NCBI RefSeq assembly: GCF_900114915.1
Contig: NZ_FOUS01000020.1
Location: 62,001-126,000, forward strand
Origin: Bradyrhizobium sp. Rc3b
Lineage (GTDB): Bacteria; Pseudomonadota; Alphaproteobacteria; Rhizobiales; Xanthobacteraceae
Direction: 5' to 3'
DNA length: 64,000 bases
A model generated the notes under the pieces. The model was not told where the DNA came from, did no database searches, and saw only the letters and a list, made by a program, of their open reading frames with translations. Position 1 is the first letter of the stretch. Each line of letters starts with the position of its first letter. Position numbers and translations under genes: made by a program. This document shows positions 10,771-17,917 of the stretch, one piece after another.

Positions 10771-11241
10771 ATGAACTATCTCGATCTCATGGACAATCGA
10801 CGCCCACCGGCGTCCGCCGACGCCATCCGCGCGCTGGAACAACATATCGGCGCGCCGCTGCCCGCGCCCTACAAGGCGCTGCTGGCGCAATCCGACGGCG
10901 GCGGCTTCGAGCCCTGCGGCGTCGAGCTGCCCTGGCGCAACGACCGCACCGTTCTGGACCTGCTGTTCACGACCCATCCGACCGACAGCTACGGCGTCAT
11001 CGACAATTACGACATGTATCGGAGCATGAACCGAATCCCCCGCCTGAGCTGCCCCTTCGCGCCCGATCCCGGCGGCGACCTGTTCCTGCTGAGCCTCGAG
11101 CCGGACAGCTATGGCCAGGTGTTCTACTGGGAGCACGAGCGTGAGCCGCCGGACGGTGGCGAAGAGTTCGCCGATTTCGCGAATACGAACCAACTGGCGC
11201 CTGATCTTGAGAGCTTTATTCTCGGGTTGGGGGAGGCGTGA
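10771..11241 (+). CDS. SMI1/KNR4 (SUKH) family protein (156 aa)
   Basis: The product fits the SUKH fold: N-terminal ADAIRALEQHIGAPLPAPYK, then ALLAQSDGGGFEP, a central VLDLLFTTHPTD and the late YGQVFYWEHE motif followed by FADFANTNQLAPDLESFILG. SUKH proteins include many immunity proteins against contact-dependent or polymorphic toxins, but no toxin-like gene is adjacent here. Length is typical. A solitary copy may be an orphan immunity protein or a housekeeping family member. Confidence 0.82.
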   Translation: MNYLDLMDNRRPPASADAIRALEQHIGAPLPAPYKALLAQSDGGGFEPCGVELPWRNDRTVLDLLFTTHPTDSYGVIDNYDMYRSMNRIPRLSCPFAPDPGGDLFLLSLEPDSYGQVFYWEHEREPPDGGEEFADFANTNQLAPDLESFILGLGEA

Positions 11242-11412: not shown

Positions 11413-11928
11413 TCAATAGCGGCCGCCGCTGCCCTTTTGCTGCGTGATCCAGGCCGACAATGATTTCGGTGCCGCCTTCGCAGTCCGGCCCGGTGATGCC
11501 TTCGGATTGTCGCGGACGCCTTTCGCCAGACGGGTGCGCGGCGATTCCGTTGCGCCAGCGCCCTTCAAGGCAGCCGTCGATGCCTCTGCGGCTTCCTTTT
11601 CCAGGCGCAACTGTTTCAATCGCGCCATCTTGATGCGCTCTGCCTCGACTTCAGGTCTTTCGGCGAGCAGCGGCTTGGCTTGAGCAAGCTCTGCCGGGAC
11701 CAGGACACCGAGAATGGTCGTCTCGCCGAGCGCCTTGCAGGCCTCTAACCGATGCAGTCCCTCGACCAGAACGAGGCGGTCTCCGTCGAGCCGAACGGAA
11801 ATGGGCTCCTGTTGTCCGATCTCCATAATACTTTCCGCGACCTCCGCGACGGTCTCGGGCTTGATGGCCTTCTTCTGCTTCGTGGGAACGAAGATCTTCT
11901 CGATCGGGAAGCTTTCCGGTTTGGGCAT
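11413..11928 (-). CDS. ParB-like nuclease-domain protein (171 aa)
   Basis: ATG at 11928 has GGAG eight bases upstream. Residues 5-90 match the ParB N-terminal/sulfiredoxin-like fold: FPIEKIFVPTKQKKAIKPET, then VAEVAESIMEIGQQEPISV and the signature LVEGLHRLEACKALGE (GxxRxxA type). A basic low-complexity tail (about 100-171, Ala/Lys/Arg/Pro-rich) follows in place of a ParB HTH or dimer domain, so this is not a chromosome-partition ParB. It lies 102 bases downstream of the retron on the same strand and could share its transcript, though it has host-like GC content. Confidence 0.78.
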   Translation of the reverse strand: MPKPESFPIEKIFVPTKQKKAIKPETVAEVAESIMEIGQQEPISVRLDGDRLVLVEGLHRLEACKALGETTILGVLVPAELAQAKPLLAERPEVEAERIKMARLKQLRLEKEAAEASTAALKGAGATESPRTRLAKGVRDNPKASPGRTAKAAPKSLSAWITQQKGSGGRY

Positions 11929-12029
11929 ACCTGTACTCCGCTTCTACCGGGCCCGACGGAACCTATGCCGGTGAGGTCGGAGTTTAGGAGGGAAGGGCTC
12001 GACCGCAAAGGCAATTCGAGTTCAGGCTC

Positions 12030-13835
12030 TCATGGCTTCGCGGCCACAACCGCTCGCTTGGCGCGCGAAGCTGTTGGACGAACTGCGGCAAGTGGAGGTG
12101 GCGGCCGCGTTGCTGTTCGTTTCGAATAATCTTCGATTACTGCCTCGATCCGCGCAAGTAAAGGCTCGAAACCCGAGAAGTCGATACTACCGGCTAGCGG
12201 GCGGATAACCTTTTCTGCAAAAATGACCTTACCGTATTCTCCAGGAGCATCGTGTTCTTTATCGGGATTGAAGATCTTGCCATCAACTTTCGTCGCTAGC
12301 ACGTGAGATTCAAAAAAATCTTCAGGGCACGATTTGTGATCAGCGCCCCTAGTCGGAGTTTTAACGAGGTACAGCGGACCGTCGAGATGATAGAATGGTA
12401 GGTCCGTTGCGAGGCCAATGCTCTGCCCAAATTTGCCTCTCAAGATTCCGAATATCGACTTTGCTCCATCGTCATTATCGATCAGCACAATTATCGGATG
12501 CTTCATTGGACGATGCTTGTGCCTTGCCAGTTCTTCTTTCCAGCCTTCGAGGAAGTATTTCAGATCGCCAGAGCCGCCGCGCATTTGGAGGAGGTCCCGC
12601 GACTGCTTCGAATATTTGAAAAATGCCACGTTTAAAAGGATGTCGCTGCCTCTAACGGAGGTCAATTTTGGATGAGCGCTCGCGAGTCTGCGGATCGCAC
12701 TTTTCAAATAAACAGGATCAGTTGGCCCCTCGCAGATGATGAGTGGCTTTGTTGGGTCTACAAAATGTTTGAAGAATACAAGTCGGTAGTAAATCTTGCG
12801 AATAGCCGAAGGATATTCGTTCGTGTGTTCGACTCGGTCTGATAGCAGCTTTTTGCGTTTTGCCGCGTCCTTCTCTGCGGATAGCGCAATGTCGATCTGC
12901 CGCTCCCTAATATTATAGATATAGTCCAAGATACCCTCGAGACGTTGTACGGACGTCTCAGAGATGCCGTCGCGCAAATAGCTTCCTGTCGAAAGAAGCG
13001 AATGCGTCATTGCACGCGCTAACTTGTAATAGCGTTGCGGCACGTTGACTTTCTCGTTCACGGTTAGCCCCGTTACAGTCTGACAACTTCCGCGTACCTG
13101 CATCCTTGTTTTGGACTCGTTTATCGAGAAGCCTGCATCTTCAATACGGGATCGCAATTCGTCGCCGAGACTCCATCCCTCAGCGACCGCAACAGCAAGT
13201 GCCTCGGGAAATTCTTTTTGGTTCGTGGAGAAGGTGATGTCGTCCGCGTAGCGCGTATAGGAGCACTTGTTTCTCCCGGCTAGTCGAACAAGGCGCATGT
13301 CGAGAAAATGAGTCAGCAGTTCCGATATTATCGGAGAGCACGGACTTCCCTGGGGAAGGGTACCATTGTTGCACGCGATCTGGGCGATTAGCGTCGCGAT
13401 TGGGCGTGCCAACTTAAAGTGATTGTTTGTAAGAAAGAAGCCGCGCACCCGGCCGAAATTGAGGCTAGGAAAGAAACCTTCGAGATCAAGGTTCAGTACG
13501 TATCGCCTCGATTTGTGTGACTTGGCATTGGTGATAATCGAGAACTGCTTGCGATACGCGTGCGAAAGCTTGTTTTTTCGTGGTTCGGACTCCTCTATCT
13601 CGCGAAGGCATTCGTACAGCAAATCAGCGAGTCGTTTTTGCAGCCCTTTGAGACGCGGAGTCGGCGCATCGATTCGCCGTGTCCCGCCTCCCTTCTTTGC
13701 TATGTCAAATGTCGTGTATTTTGCGGTGGGCGGTGTCAGGTAGACTATAAACGACAGTGCACTAGGTTTGTAACCGAGGAGAACTGCCAGATCATTCCTG
13801 GTTGTTGCTGCGCGGAGCGCGTGTAGGCTGGACAA
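12030..13835 (-). CDS. Retron reverse transcriptase fused to TOPRIM domain (Ec67 type, 601 aa)
   Basis: The RT part (about 1-350) carries the retron NAxxH motif (NAKSH, 103-107), catalytic Asp in LNLDLEGFFPS (D117), PQGSPCSP (161-168), YADD (196-199) and the VTG motif that retron RTs use to recognise their RNA (VTGLTVNEKVNV, 254-265). The C-terminal part has TOPRIM signatures: IICEGPTD (E369) and IVLIDNDDG (D453, D455). This fusion and phrases such as LNFGRVRGFFL match what I recall of retron Ec67. The RT makes msDNA from the RNA encoded just upstream; the TOPRIM part is the presumed toxic effector in phage defence. TTG start; an in-frame stop lies nine bases upstream. Codon use is AT-richer than neighbours, suggesting transfer. 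The last 30 residues form a basic Pro/Ala tail of host-like GC. Confidence 0.95.
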   Translation of the reverse strand: MSSLHALRAATTRNDLAVLLGYKPSALSFIVYLTPPTAKYTTFDIAKKGGGTRRIDAPTPRLKGLQKRLADLLYECLREIEESEPRKNKLSHAYRKQFSIITNAKSHKSRRYVLNLDLEGFFPSLNFGRVRGFFLTNNHFKLARPIATLIAQIACNNGTLPQGSPCSPIISELLTHFLDMRLVRLAGRNKCSYTRYADDITFSTNQKEFPEALAVAVAEGWSLGDELRSRIEDAGFSINESKTRMQVRGSCQTVTGLTVNEKVNVPQRYYKLARAMTHSLLSTGSYLRDGISETSVQRLEGILDYIYNIRERQIDIALSAEKDAAKRKKLLSDRVEHTNEYPSAIRKIYYRLVFFKHFVDPTKPLIICEGPTDPVYLKSAIRRLASAHPKLTSVRGSDILLNVAFFKYSKQSRDLLQMRGGSGDLKYFLEGWKEELARHKHRPMKHPIIVLIDNDDGAKSIFGILRGKFGQSIGLATDLPFYHLDGPLYLVKTPTRGADHKSCPEDFFESHVLATKVDGKIFNPDKEHDAPGEYGKVIFAEKVIRPLAGSIDFSGFEPLLARIEAVIEDYSKRTATRPPPPLAAVRPTASRAKRAVVAAKP

Positions 13836-13856
13836 TGCGTTTCACCAGAACAAATG

Positions 13857-13982
13857 GCTTACAGGCACTCCTACGCGCCGCGCAGGCCATCATACCTGGA
13901 GATCATTGAGCATCGCTCAGGAGCAGCGCTCCTGCCGTTGGATCATATATCGCGAAACACGATAACAAATCTGCCTGTAAGC
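13857..13982 (-). ncRNA. Retron msr-msd RNA (Ec67-like)
   Basis: The 126-base stretch is closed by a perfect 11-bp inverted repeat (a1/a2): 13972-13982 and 13857-13867, reading GCTTACAGGCA at the RNA 5' end and TGCCTGTAAGC at the 3' end. The msr begins AGGCAGATTTGTT and has a hairpin TATCGTG-TTT-CGCGATA with the UUU loop usual in retrons. By comparison with remembered Ec67 RNA, which shares AGGCAGATTTGTT, GGCAGGAG and AGGAGTGCCTG, the branching G should be at 13971 and the msDNA should span 13871-13936 (66 nt; Ec67 makes 67). The msd holds two adjacent hairpins, TGAGC-ATC-GCTCA and CAGGAGC-AGC-GCTCCTG. The RNA ends 21 bases before the RT start codon. Confidence 0.92.
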
Positions 13983-14070
13983 TTCCGGTGAGCTCAGAAC
14001 AGATTCATATTTGTGCAAGCCTAGCGTGTTGAATCGGAGAGGTGCACGGCTTGTACTTTCGTCGACACGT

Positions 14071-14106
14071 CAAAGGAAAGGCGGCCTCTCGGCCGCCTTT
14101 CCTGGA
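14071..14106 (-). terminator. Rho-independent terminator of nrdJ
   Basis: Perfect 12-bp stem GGAAAGGCGGCC / GGCCGCCTTTCC with a 4-base loop, followed on the minus strand by TTTG. It lies about 40 bases after the nrdJ stop codon and before the retron RNA, so it should insulate the retron from nrdJ transcription. Confidence 0.85.
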
Positions 14107-14143
14107 TGCTCGGGTATAATGATGATCGTCGAGATCTATCCCC

Positions 14144-17100
14144 TCACGAACACCCCGTCGTGCTGCCGCAAGTATCGCACTTCATGCAGGTCCCATTCCG
14201 CACCAGCGTGAAGTTGCCGCACTCGCTGCACATCTCGCCTTCGTAGCCCTTGGCCTTGGCTTCGGCGCGACGCTCGGCCTTGGTGGGGACGAGGGTCTGG
14301 GCGGTGCTGCCGGCTTTGCTCCATTGCAGCGCCTCGAGTTTCTCCGTGGGGGAGAGGTCGTGGGCTGCCTCCTGCTTCAGGGCGACGGCGCCTTCGAGGG
14401 CGTCGCCGACGCGGGCGCTGGTGCCGTGCGAGGCGAGCGCGGTGACCTTGCTGCCGCCGGTGGGGGCGCCGTCATTGCCCGGCGCGATCGCGGCGCTGCC
14501 GCCGCGCATCACGACGAGGTTGTCGGTCCGCGAGCGGGTGAGGCCGCGCGAGACCAGGCGGGTGGCGTGGTGGCCGCCGTCCTCGTCCGGCTCCTTGCCT
14601 TCCTCGACGCCCTTGCCGAGCGCGTCGAAGCCGGTCTCGTTGGGATCGACATGGGCGAGGTCGAAGCGCGACATGTAGCTCACCGCGAGCTCGCGGAAGA
14701 CGTAGTCGAGGATCGAGGTCGCGTACTTGATGCTGTCGTTGCCCTGCACGGGACCCGCCGGCTCGAAGCGGGTGAAGGTGAAGGCGTCGACATATTCGTC
14801 CAGCGGCACGCCGTATTGCAGGCCGAGCGACACCGCGATGGCGAAGTTGTTGATGAAGGAGCGGAGCGCCGCGCCTTCCTTGTGCATGTCGATGAAGATC
14901 TCGCCGAGACGGCCATCGTCATATTCGCCGGTGCGCAAGTACACCTTGTGGCCGCCGACGACCGCCTTCTGGGTGTAGCCCTTGCGGCGATCCGGCATCT
15001 TCTCGCGCTCGCGCATCACGATGATGCGCTCGACCAGCTTCTCGACGATCTTCTCCGAGACCTGGGTCGCGCGTGCGGCCATCGGCTTCTCGTAGAGGCT
15101 CTCGACCGCATCGTCCTCGTCCTCATCATCGCTGATGAGCTGCGAGTTGAGCGGCTGGGAGAGTTTCGAGCCGTCGCGATAGAGCGCGTTGGCCTTCAGC
15201 GCCAGCTTCCACGACAGCATGTAGGCGGACTTGCAGTCCTCCACAGTTGCATCGTTCGGCATGTTGATGGTCTTGGAGATCGCACCCGAGATGAAGGGCT
15301 GCGCCGCCGCCATCATGCGGATGTGGCTCTCGACCGACAGATAGCGCTTGCCGATCTTGCCGCAGGGATTGGCGCAGTCGAACACCGCATAGTGCTCGGC
15401 CTTGAGGTGCGGCGCACCTTCCACCGTCATGGCGCCGCAGATGTGGACGTTGGCCGCCTCGATCTCGCGCTTGGTGAAGCCGACCGCCTGGAGCAGGTCG
15501 AAGCCGGGGGCCGCGATCGCCTCGGCGCCGATGCCGAGCTGGTCGCGAATGAAATCTTCGCCAAACGTCCACTTGTTGAAGGCGAACTTGATGTCGAAGG
15601 CGGTCGGCAGGGCCTTTTCGACCTTGGCGATGGCTTCATCGGTGAAGCCTTTTGCCTTCAGCGTCGAGGCGTTGATGCCGGGGGCGTTGGAGAGCGAGCC
15701 GTGGCCGACGGCGTAGGCCTCGATCTCCGCGATATCAGCTTCGCGATAGCCGAGCGCGCGCAGCGCTGCGGGGACCGCGCGGTTGATGATCTTGAAGTAG
15801 CCGCCGCCGGCGAGCTTCTTGAACTTCACCAGCGCGAAGTCGGGCTCGATGCCAGTGGTGTCGCAGTCCATCACGAGGCCGATCGTGCCGGTCGGCGCGA
15901 TCACCGTGGTCTGGGCGTTGCGATAGCCGTGCTGCTCGCCGAGCGCGAGCGCCGCATCCCAGGCCGCCTTGGCATGGGTGACGAGGTCTTGTTGCGGGCA
16001 GGAGGCGTGGTCGAGCGGCACCGGGTTGACGCTGAGCGCCTCGTAACCGGAGGCCTCGCCGTGCGCGGCGCGGCGGTGGTTGCGGATCACGCGCAGCATG
16101 TGCGCGGCGTTCTTCTTGTAGCCGGGGAAGGTGCCGAGCTCGGCCGCCATCTCCGCGGAGGTCTTGTAGGTGATGCCGGTCATCACAGCGGTGAGGGCGC
16201 CGCAGAGCGCGCGGCCTTCCTTGCTGTCATACGACAGGCCCATGGTCATCAGGAGGCCACCGATATTGGCGTAGCCGAGGCCGAGCGTGCGGAACTCATA
16301 GGAGAGCTCGGCGATCGCCTTCGACGGGAACTGCGCCATCATCACCGAGATTTCGAGCACGATGGTCCAGAGCTGGCAGAGGTGCTCATAACCCCTGACG
16401 TCGAACTGCTTGGTCTCGGCGTTGTAGAACGTCAGCAGGTTCGCGGAGGCCAGGTTGCACGCCGTGTCGTCCAGGAACATGTATTCCGAGCACGGATTGG
16501 ACGCGCGGATGTCGCCGGACGCCTTGCAGGTGTGCCAGTCGTTCATCGTGGTGTTGAAGTGCAGGCCCGGGTCGGCCGACGCCCAGGCGGCGTAGCCAAT
16601 CTTCTCCCAGAGGTCGCGCGCCTTCAGCGTCTTCGTCACCTTCTTGGAGGTGCGGGCGTTGAGATTCCAGTCGCCATCGGTCTCGACGGCGCGGAGGAAG
16701 TCGTCCTTCAGCGAGACCGAGTTGTTGGAGTTCTGGCCGGAGACGGTGAGATAGGCTTCGCTGTCCCAGTCGGTGTCGTAGGTGTCGAACTGGATGTCCT
16801 TGTAGCCTTGCTTGGCAAACTGGATGACGCGCTTGATGTAATTGTCAGGCACGAGGCTGCGGCGCGCGAGCTTGATCTCGCGGCGGAGGGCAGGGTTCTT
16901 CTCGGGGTCGAAGCAGTCGTCGCCCGAGCCTTCGCAGTTGACGCAGGCCTTGAGCACCAGCTTGAGGTGCTTCTGGTTGATCTTGGATCCCGTGACGAGG
17001 GCGGCGACCTTCTGCTCCTCCTTCACCTTCCAGTCGATATAGGTCTCGATGTCGGGGTGATCGACGTCGACCACGACCATCTTGGCGGCGCGGCGGGTGG

Positions 17101-17917
17101 TGCCGCCCGACTTGATCGCGCCGGCGGCGCGGTCGCCGATCTTGAGGAAGCTCATCAGGCCGGATGAGCGGCCGCCGCCGGAGAGCTTTTCGCCTTCGCC
17201 GCGCAGACGCGAGAAGTTGGAGCCGGTGCCGGAGCCGTATTTGAACAGGCGCGCTTCGCGGACCCAGAGGTCCATGATGCCGCCCTCGTTGACGAGGTCG
17301 TCACCGACGCCCTGGATGAAGCAGGCGTGCGGCTGCGGGTGCTCGTAGGACGATTTCGAGCGGGTCAGCTTGCCGGTGAAGGGGTCGACGTAATAATGGC
17401 CCTGGCCGGGGCCGTCGATGCCATAGGCCCAGTGCAGGCCGGTGTTGAACCATTGCGGCGAGTTCGGCGCGACCATCTGCATGGCGAGCATGTAGCGGAG
17501 CTCGTCGTAGAACGCCTGGGCGTCCTCGTCGGTCGAGAAGTACTTGCCCTTCCAGCCCCAATAGGTCCAGCAGCCGGCGAGGCGGTCGAACACCTGCTTT
17601 GCGCTGAGCTCGCTGACATAGCGCTCCTTCTCGGGCAGCGCGGCGAGTGCGTCAGTATCGGGCACGGAGCGCCACAGGAAGGAGGGGACGGATTCCTCCT
17701 CGACCTTCTTCAGGCGCGCGGCGACGCCGGCTTTGCGGAAATACTTCTGGGCGAGCACGTCGGAGGCGACCTGCGACCACTCGGTCGGGACCTCGACGCC
17801 ATCAAGTTTAAACACGACCGAGCCGTCGGGATTCCTGATCTCCGACGTGGTCTGGCGGAAATCGATTCCCGCGTAAGGTGACTGTCCTGCCGTGGTGTGG
17901 CGCCGCTCAATCCGCAT
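14144..17917 (-). CDS. nrdJ: Vitamin B12-dependent (class II) ribonucleoside-diphosphate reductase
   Basis: The 1257-residue protein converts ribonucleotides to deoxyribonucleotides using adenosylcobalamin. Visible family features are the N-terminal [15 protein letters not shown] region, [15 protein letters not shown], the barrel segments [20 protein letters not shown] and [20 protein letters not shown], and the C-terminal TSCPD/zinc part ending [20 protein letters not shown] (four Cys). Length matches the large alphaproteobacterial form. Monocistronic, with a strong terminator at the 3' end. Possible NrdR boxes lie far upstream at 18360-18404. Confidence 0.96.

Follow-up and report, generated by a model that had tools for sequence, protein, structure and literature searches.

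In the 64,000-nt stretch of Bradyrhizobium sp. Rc3b DNA analysed here (the window), a perfect inverted repeat closes 126 bases just upstream of a gene that appears to encode a reverse transcriptase (RT) fused to a Toprim-like part. Is this segment the noncoding RNA (msr-msd) of a retron, which of its bases would be copied into msDNA, and does that msDNA form a sensor unlike that of Ec67 (Eco2), the known retron that it resembles? A sequence-only reading of this DNA had proposed an answer to each of these questions.

A conserved retron-type RNA upstream of the RT gene

Repeat finding recovered the 11-bp perfect a1/a2 repeat around 126 bases that the sequence-only reading had described (Table 1). 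The element ends 21 nt upstream of the RT-Toprim gene, with both on the minus strand, and structure prediction for the 126-nt RNA gave a fold with z −2.81, equalled in stability by 2 of 200 shuffles.

Relatives were sought by protein searches of genomes from the genus (242), the order (397) and the class (385), together with plasmids, genome contigs and E. coli genomes. Eighteen plasmid records matched over 80% or more of the protein length, and 10 of them were taken; plasmid matches in Listeria, Enterococcus, Staphylococcus and Lactiplantibacillus and the phage record H1 were left out. In each of the 37 type I-C loci retrieved (L001, L003–L017, L033–L053; others, including the Gram-positive plasmid matches, excluded) an RNA of this kind stands immediately before the RT gene. 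Thirty-six of these RNAs were found by an a1/a2 rule that tolerated at most one mismatch, and that of L038 by a looser rule, with one mismatch inside a1. Alignment A1 comprises 34 RNAs, i.e., the 36 minus the duplicates L014, L050 and L051, plus L038, and a non-redundant set of 29 rows was obtained by dropping the near-duplicates L005, L013, L015, L016 and L017.

Two-sided changes occur in A1 in 10 of the 11 a1/a2 pairs and in 6 of the 7 msr stem pairs; 98.7% of the cells pair (83.6% in shuffles), and the signal disappears when the partners are slid. Because the a1/a2 rule chose the rows of A1, pairing of a1 with a2 is partly by construction, and only the msr stem-loop is therefore an independent test of covariation. 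A covariance model, R1, built from 33 relatives with the window RNA excluded, has a sole match in the window, exactly 13857–13982 on the minus strand (95.5 bits, E 5.8e-23). This match and the covariation bear out the earlier claim of an Ec67-like msr-msd, and the 126-nt element is very probably a retron noncoding RNA of type I-C (Ec67/Eco2-like).

Run over 235 genomes of the genus, R1 gave 18 matches in 17 genomes, each adjoining a type I-C RT match: 13 are rows used to build it, one is the window RNA, another (in G005) duplicates a row, and three are new (in G117, in G129 and a second one in G005). There was no match of R1 in 16 other RT loci, 15 of which have similarity in the RT part only, while L020 is a type I-C fragment at a contig end; the match of L038 to R1 is by construction, since L038 is a row of the model. 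Rfam 15 at gathering thresholds had no match over the window, and at E up to 10 it gave 10 weak matches between 13700 and 14140, no retron family among them.

Several features of the relatives were noted in passing. G005 holds two type I-C retron RNAs (L063, L071), one of them beside a partial RT match, and L013 (G177) has the same RNA sequence as L014 (G005). Type I-C RT matches with a stop in the matched stretch, split by frame or contig, or fragmentary occur in L005, L006, L008, L017, L020, L034, L038 and L041 and likewise in G117, G129, G155 and G077.

Table 1 Features of the retron locus in the window and genes found at the corresponding spot of related genomes
Feature	Position or genome	Strand	Basis or comment
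Retron noncoding RNA (msr-msd), putative	13857..13982	-	126 nt counted a1 to a2; R1 match and alignment with 33 relatives
a1 arm, 5' in RNA	13972..13982	-	Perfect inverted repeat; double changes in 10/11 pairs (A1)
a2 arm, 3' in RNA	13857..13867	-	Perfect inverted repeat; double changes in 10/11 pairs (A1)
Predicted branch guanosine (Eco2 rG15)	13971	-	Invariant in 34/34 rows; rG15 from PMC12405507
msr stem-loop, 7 bp, UUU loop	13948..13964	-	Double changes in 6/7 pairs; 96.6% of cells paired
Predicted msDNA, 68 nt	13869..13936	reads as +	dT1 = 13869, last dC = 13936; Eco2 dT1/dC67 transferred via A1
Predicted 11-bp RNA:DNA hybrid kept at msDNA 3' end	13926..13936		From Eco2 rG52–rA62 (PMC12405507)
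RT-Toprim fusion gene, 601 aa, TTG start	12030..13835	-	PADLOC RT-Toprim_I-C, E 9.2e-220
C-terminal Toprim-like effector part, about residues 364–575, then low-confidence tail	12033..12746	-	Limits approximate; Eco2 residue matches
Exchangeable segment with the retron, flanked by ParB-like gene and nrdJ	12017..14142		Limits from G005 comparison
Spot gene: PARIS AriAB	G021		Match 2.1e-157
Spot gene: AbiTii	G009
Spot gene: nSTAND3 protein matching PDC-S73	G022
Spot genes: DRT-type reverse transcriptase and PIN protein	G018
Spot gene: bSEFIR match	G013
Spot gene: OLD-like AAA fragment	G005

The RT-Toprim protein

The 601-aa protein matches the PDB chain of Ec67 over residues 2–570 (E 5.8e-125). 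A Pfam search of it returned RVT_1 as the only family above the cut-off, one sub-threshold match and no Toprim family. In the Toprim-like part, E369, D373, D453, D455 and E505 correspond to Eco2 E374, D378, D460, D462 and E515, so that catalytic residues are kept at five of six comparable Eco2 positions. Eco2 S513 (metal B) is Cys503 in the window protein; Eco2 K562 (paper numbering) is D562 in the L052 copy and hence stands outside this count. In the RT part, the YADD motif is Y196-A-D-D199, F43, R181 and H278 correspond to Eco2 F46, R184 and H281, and N103, H107, T255 and G256 are invariant in alignment A4 (23 rows), which places the retron RT motifs named NAXXH and VTG in PMC12405507 in the protein. 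An AlphaFold2 model calculated from 15 rows (the window protein and 14 relatives) has a mean pLDDT of 82.9 and a pTM of 0.54, with pLDDT below 50 at residues 580–601; its five best PDB matches are all Eco2 chains (rmsd 6.5–6.7 Å; best, 9lm3: E 4.6e-50, 589 columns, rmsd 6.7 Å).

The same comparison bears on whether the retron is alive. RNA and gene could be present but not made or not active, as in a decayed or silent retron, a reading that is itself compatible with type I-C. The TTG start and the S513C exchange would fit it, as would the lack of a clear equivalent of R332, which is needed for Eco2 defence (PMC12405507) and aligns to K328 beside a gap in the trimer-interface loop; the promoter and terminator scan found no sigma-70-like promoter between 13700 and 14150, and no terminator. 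Yet the 601-aa frame is open, YADD and the five Toprim residues are kept, and the a1/a2 helix is still perfect; we regard decay or silence as unlikely.

Predicted msDNA ends

The ends of the msDNA were placed by alignment with Ec67 (Eco2), represented by L052 (E. coli NCTC8623, NZ_LR134234.1). Of the Eco2 letters taken by position from PMC12405507, 18 of 20 agree with L052; the two that do not, rC8 and rA9, are given there for IRa1, and numbering on the other arm is perhaps the cause. The msDNA predicted for L052, 67 nt from dT1 to dC67, matches the Eco2 msDNA published in PMC12405507. The blocks AGGCAGATTTGTT, GGCAGGAG and AGGAGTGCCTG, cited earlier as common to the window RNA and Ec67, are indeed present in both. 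As exact blocks they recur in 6 (AGGCAGATTTGTT), 13 (AGGAGTGCCTG) and only 2 (GGCAGGAG) of the 34 rows, and for GGCAGGAG it is thus the position rather than the block that is conserved.

The branch guanosine proposed earlier at 13971 agrees with that of Eco2; like A11 and A13 on either side, it is invariant in all 34 rows. In Eco2, dT1 copies the A directly 5' of the G that precedes a2; the equivalent in the window, the A two bases before a2, is at 13869 and invariant in 34/34 rows. The template of the 3' end (Eco2 rG52) aligns to 13936, a G in 32 of the 34 rows, in accord with the 3' end given earlier. Since the conserved template bases for dT1 and for the 3' end lie at these positions, we predict an msDNA of 68 nt. 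The sequence-only reading had come close to this size, which it compared with the 67 nt of Ec67, but its 66 nt began at 13871, two bases off. Such a start would lose dT1 and dC2, both part of an msDNA 5' end (dT1-dC2-N-dT4-N-N-dG7) that is invariant in 29/29 non-redundant rows. The spacer between the msr stem and the msDNA 3' end measures 11 nt in the window and 12 in Eco2, and an error of about 1 nt at the 3' end is therefore possible.

Folding of the msDNA

The start at 13871 had been part of a larger proposal, namely that a 66-nt msDNA, in which two adjacent hairpins replace one long stem, may constitute a sensor unlike that of Ec67. Computed folds do give separate small hairpins in the window msDNA, of which 13918–13934, near the 3' end, has the longest stem (7 bp), and cryo-EM work on Eco2 describes its msDNA as 'a single long DNA hairpin', with weak density over most of it (PMC12405507). 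A second study of Eco2 (eLife, PMC12956279) describes a single strand joining two predicted hairpin loops and a distal msd highly tolerant of insertions. The minimum-energy fold of the 68-nt window msDNA has four small hairpins rather than two and is not distinguishable from background (z −0.26; 77 of 200 shuffles at least as good). Ec67 msDNA, folded with DNA parameters, itself forms two side-by-side elements, and the 34 rows have one to four hairpins per msDNA at lengths of 58–84 nt. Moreover, the predicted RNA:DNA hybrid overlaps the 3' hairpin and should take up its 3' arm. With no fold signal, with hairpin counts that vary among relatives and with two elements in Ec67 as well, the suggestion of a different effector-sensing structure is unsupported, and the proposal as a whole, with its start beyond two invariant bases, is very improbable.

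Across the family there is at most a weak tendency toward a 3' hairpin, as fold z averages −0.39 over the 34 rows when the whole msDNA is folded and −0.52 when only the 3' 32 nt are (means overall −0.32 to −0.66). No consensus helix within the msd emerged from RNAalifold, which returned, in addition to a1/a2 and the msr stem, two nearly invariant pairs, columns 144–145/152–153, at the msd/a2 edge. A search for a motif within the msDNAs, run on 29 of the 34 rows at three widths, yielded a higher information content than six mono-shuffled controls per width, but the positions are scattered and no motif was established.

The interior of the msDNA appears free to vary, with no special hairpin arrangement needed. 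A tentative suggestion, which we hold to be possible though rather doubtful, is that the sensing part of the msDNA of type I-C retrons is not a hairpin at all, the conserved features being the 5' primary sequence and the last 3' base, around a free interior of variable length. If so, the msDNA would register a nuclease or binding protein of phage that acts on ssDNA through its ends or through any cut, regardless of fold. Equally, the 5' end might be conserved for no other reason than the demands of RT priming on the RNA template. Hairpin counts in type I-C msDNAs should not be read as differences between sensors without a background test.

Genomic setting

The retron lies between a small ParB-like gene (11413–11928; ParB_N match sub-threshold in Pfam) and nrdJ, which encodes a class II ribonucleotide reductase (14144–17917). 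In G005 and G008 both flanks align, and about 0.9–1 kb of other DNA stands between the ParB-like gene and nrdJ. Among the corresponding regions of 16 relatives, nrdJ lies within the stretch in 13, with a spot of 1.0–4.4 kb, and three are without it. The spot is exchangeable in this genus, as noted from loci L083, L084–L095 and L098. PADLOC was run on 20 of the 24 spot ORFs of at least 130 aa and, of the 13 relatives with both flanking genes, six have a defence-type match in the spot (Table 1). G029 has a weak match to PDC-M28B (1.6e-7) in a ParA-like protein, which was not counted as defence, and in the remaining six spots these ORFs gave no defence-type match. The content of the spot is consistent with a defence role of the retron.

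Two further observations concern the surroundings. A 10-bp inverted repeat (AAAGGCGGCC/GGCCGCCTTT, 14077–14100) just downstream of nrdJ, not flagged by the T-run rule of the scan, is perhaps the nrdJ terminator. A protein of the SUKH (SMI1/KNR4) family is encoded at 10771–11241, two genes from the retron; SUKH family proteins are often immunity proteins.

Discussion

Taken alone, the a1/a2 repeat is weak to modest evidence for an RNA. The window contains 8 such repeats (same length, span 100–160), while 30 Markov-1 simulated windows average 3.2 and two of them also reach 8; 17 of 5000 simulations place one within the 300 nt that precede the RT gene. Although a repeat of this length and span is accordingly not rare over 64 kb, the idea of a chance repeat with no RNA function is refuted by the R1 match, the covariation and the same RNA in 37/37 type I-C loci retrieved, and its probability is negligible. 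As judged by comparative analysis, it is homology and not the repeat that settles the identity of the RNA.

The best explanation, in which we have high confidence, is that the locus is a type I-C (Ec67/Eco2-like) retron of the toxin-fused anti-phage defence kind. The parts read from the sequence are an a1/a2 helix, a branch G followed by A, a 7-bp msr stem-loop, an msd template and a downstream RT-Toprim gene. According to PMC12405507, the Eco2 ribonucleoprotein is self-inhibited and its Toprim RNase is released after a phage ssDNA nuclease attacks the msDNA; the nuclease there is DenB, and a direct test was not possible in that study. By analogy with Eco2, the window RT would prime from the 2'-OH of G 13971 and copy the template from 13869 to 13936 into the 68-nt msDNA, and host RNase H would trim the template to leave a hybrid of about 11 bp. 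The resulting RNA-DNA would keep RT-Toprim in an inactive oligomer until the msDNA is damaged by a factor of the phage (for Eco2, a DenB-like ssDNA nuclease); the Toprim part might then be freed as an RNase and the infection stopped.

The retron RNA is, on sequence grounds, ordinary and well formed, and the earlier reading was right in kind in that it belongs to the known type I-C. From the analysis come exact predicted msDNA ends for one RT-Toprim retron of the Alphaproteobacteria, together with a covariance model for RNAs of type I-C; Rfam 15 had no match to such an RNA in the window. The spot beside nrdJ may yield further systems. Among the titles listed for retrons together with Bradyrhizobium or rhizobia none describes the window retron, which is no proof of absence, and the main text of a 2025 report on new environmental retrons (PMC12548924) does not contain the terms Toprim, I-C or Bradyrhizobium.

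Comparison with known retrons

Ec67/Eco2 (L052) shares with the window retron the fused RT-Toprim, a single msr stem-loop with a 3-nt loop, the branch G followed by A, the same end landmarks and a predicted 3' hairpin near the end, with an msDNA of 67 nt vs 68 nt here. The two differ in the msr loop, UUU in the window and AAU in the Eco2 RSL (PMC12405507), and in the sequences of a1/a2 and of the msd interior; protein identity is 235 of 569 aligned residues (41%), with the S513C exchange and a trimer loop that appears not to be conserved. Their settings also differ, as the window retron is chromosomal beside nrdJ whereas L052 lies beside phage portal and terminase genes. Closer at hand are the RT-Toprim loci L004–L007 of the genus (55–75% protein identity), which have the same anatomy and a nearly identical msr, but whose msd interiors and predicted folds differ (msDNA of 66–70 nt) and whose 1.5-kb flanks, unlike those in the window, hold neither the ParB-like gene nor nrdJ. 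Eco1/Ec86 (type II-A) has in common with the window retron the RT fold, as seen in the structure match, and branch chemistry is common to Eco1/Ec86 and retrons of the window type. The UUU loop of the window msr stem-loop is likewise a feature of Eco1 in PMC12405507, where, unlike in the window retron, the Eco1 effector has a gene of its own and the msr a further stem-loop.
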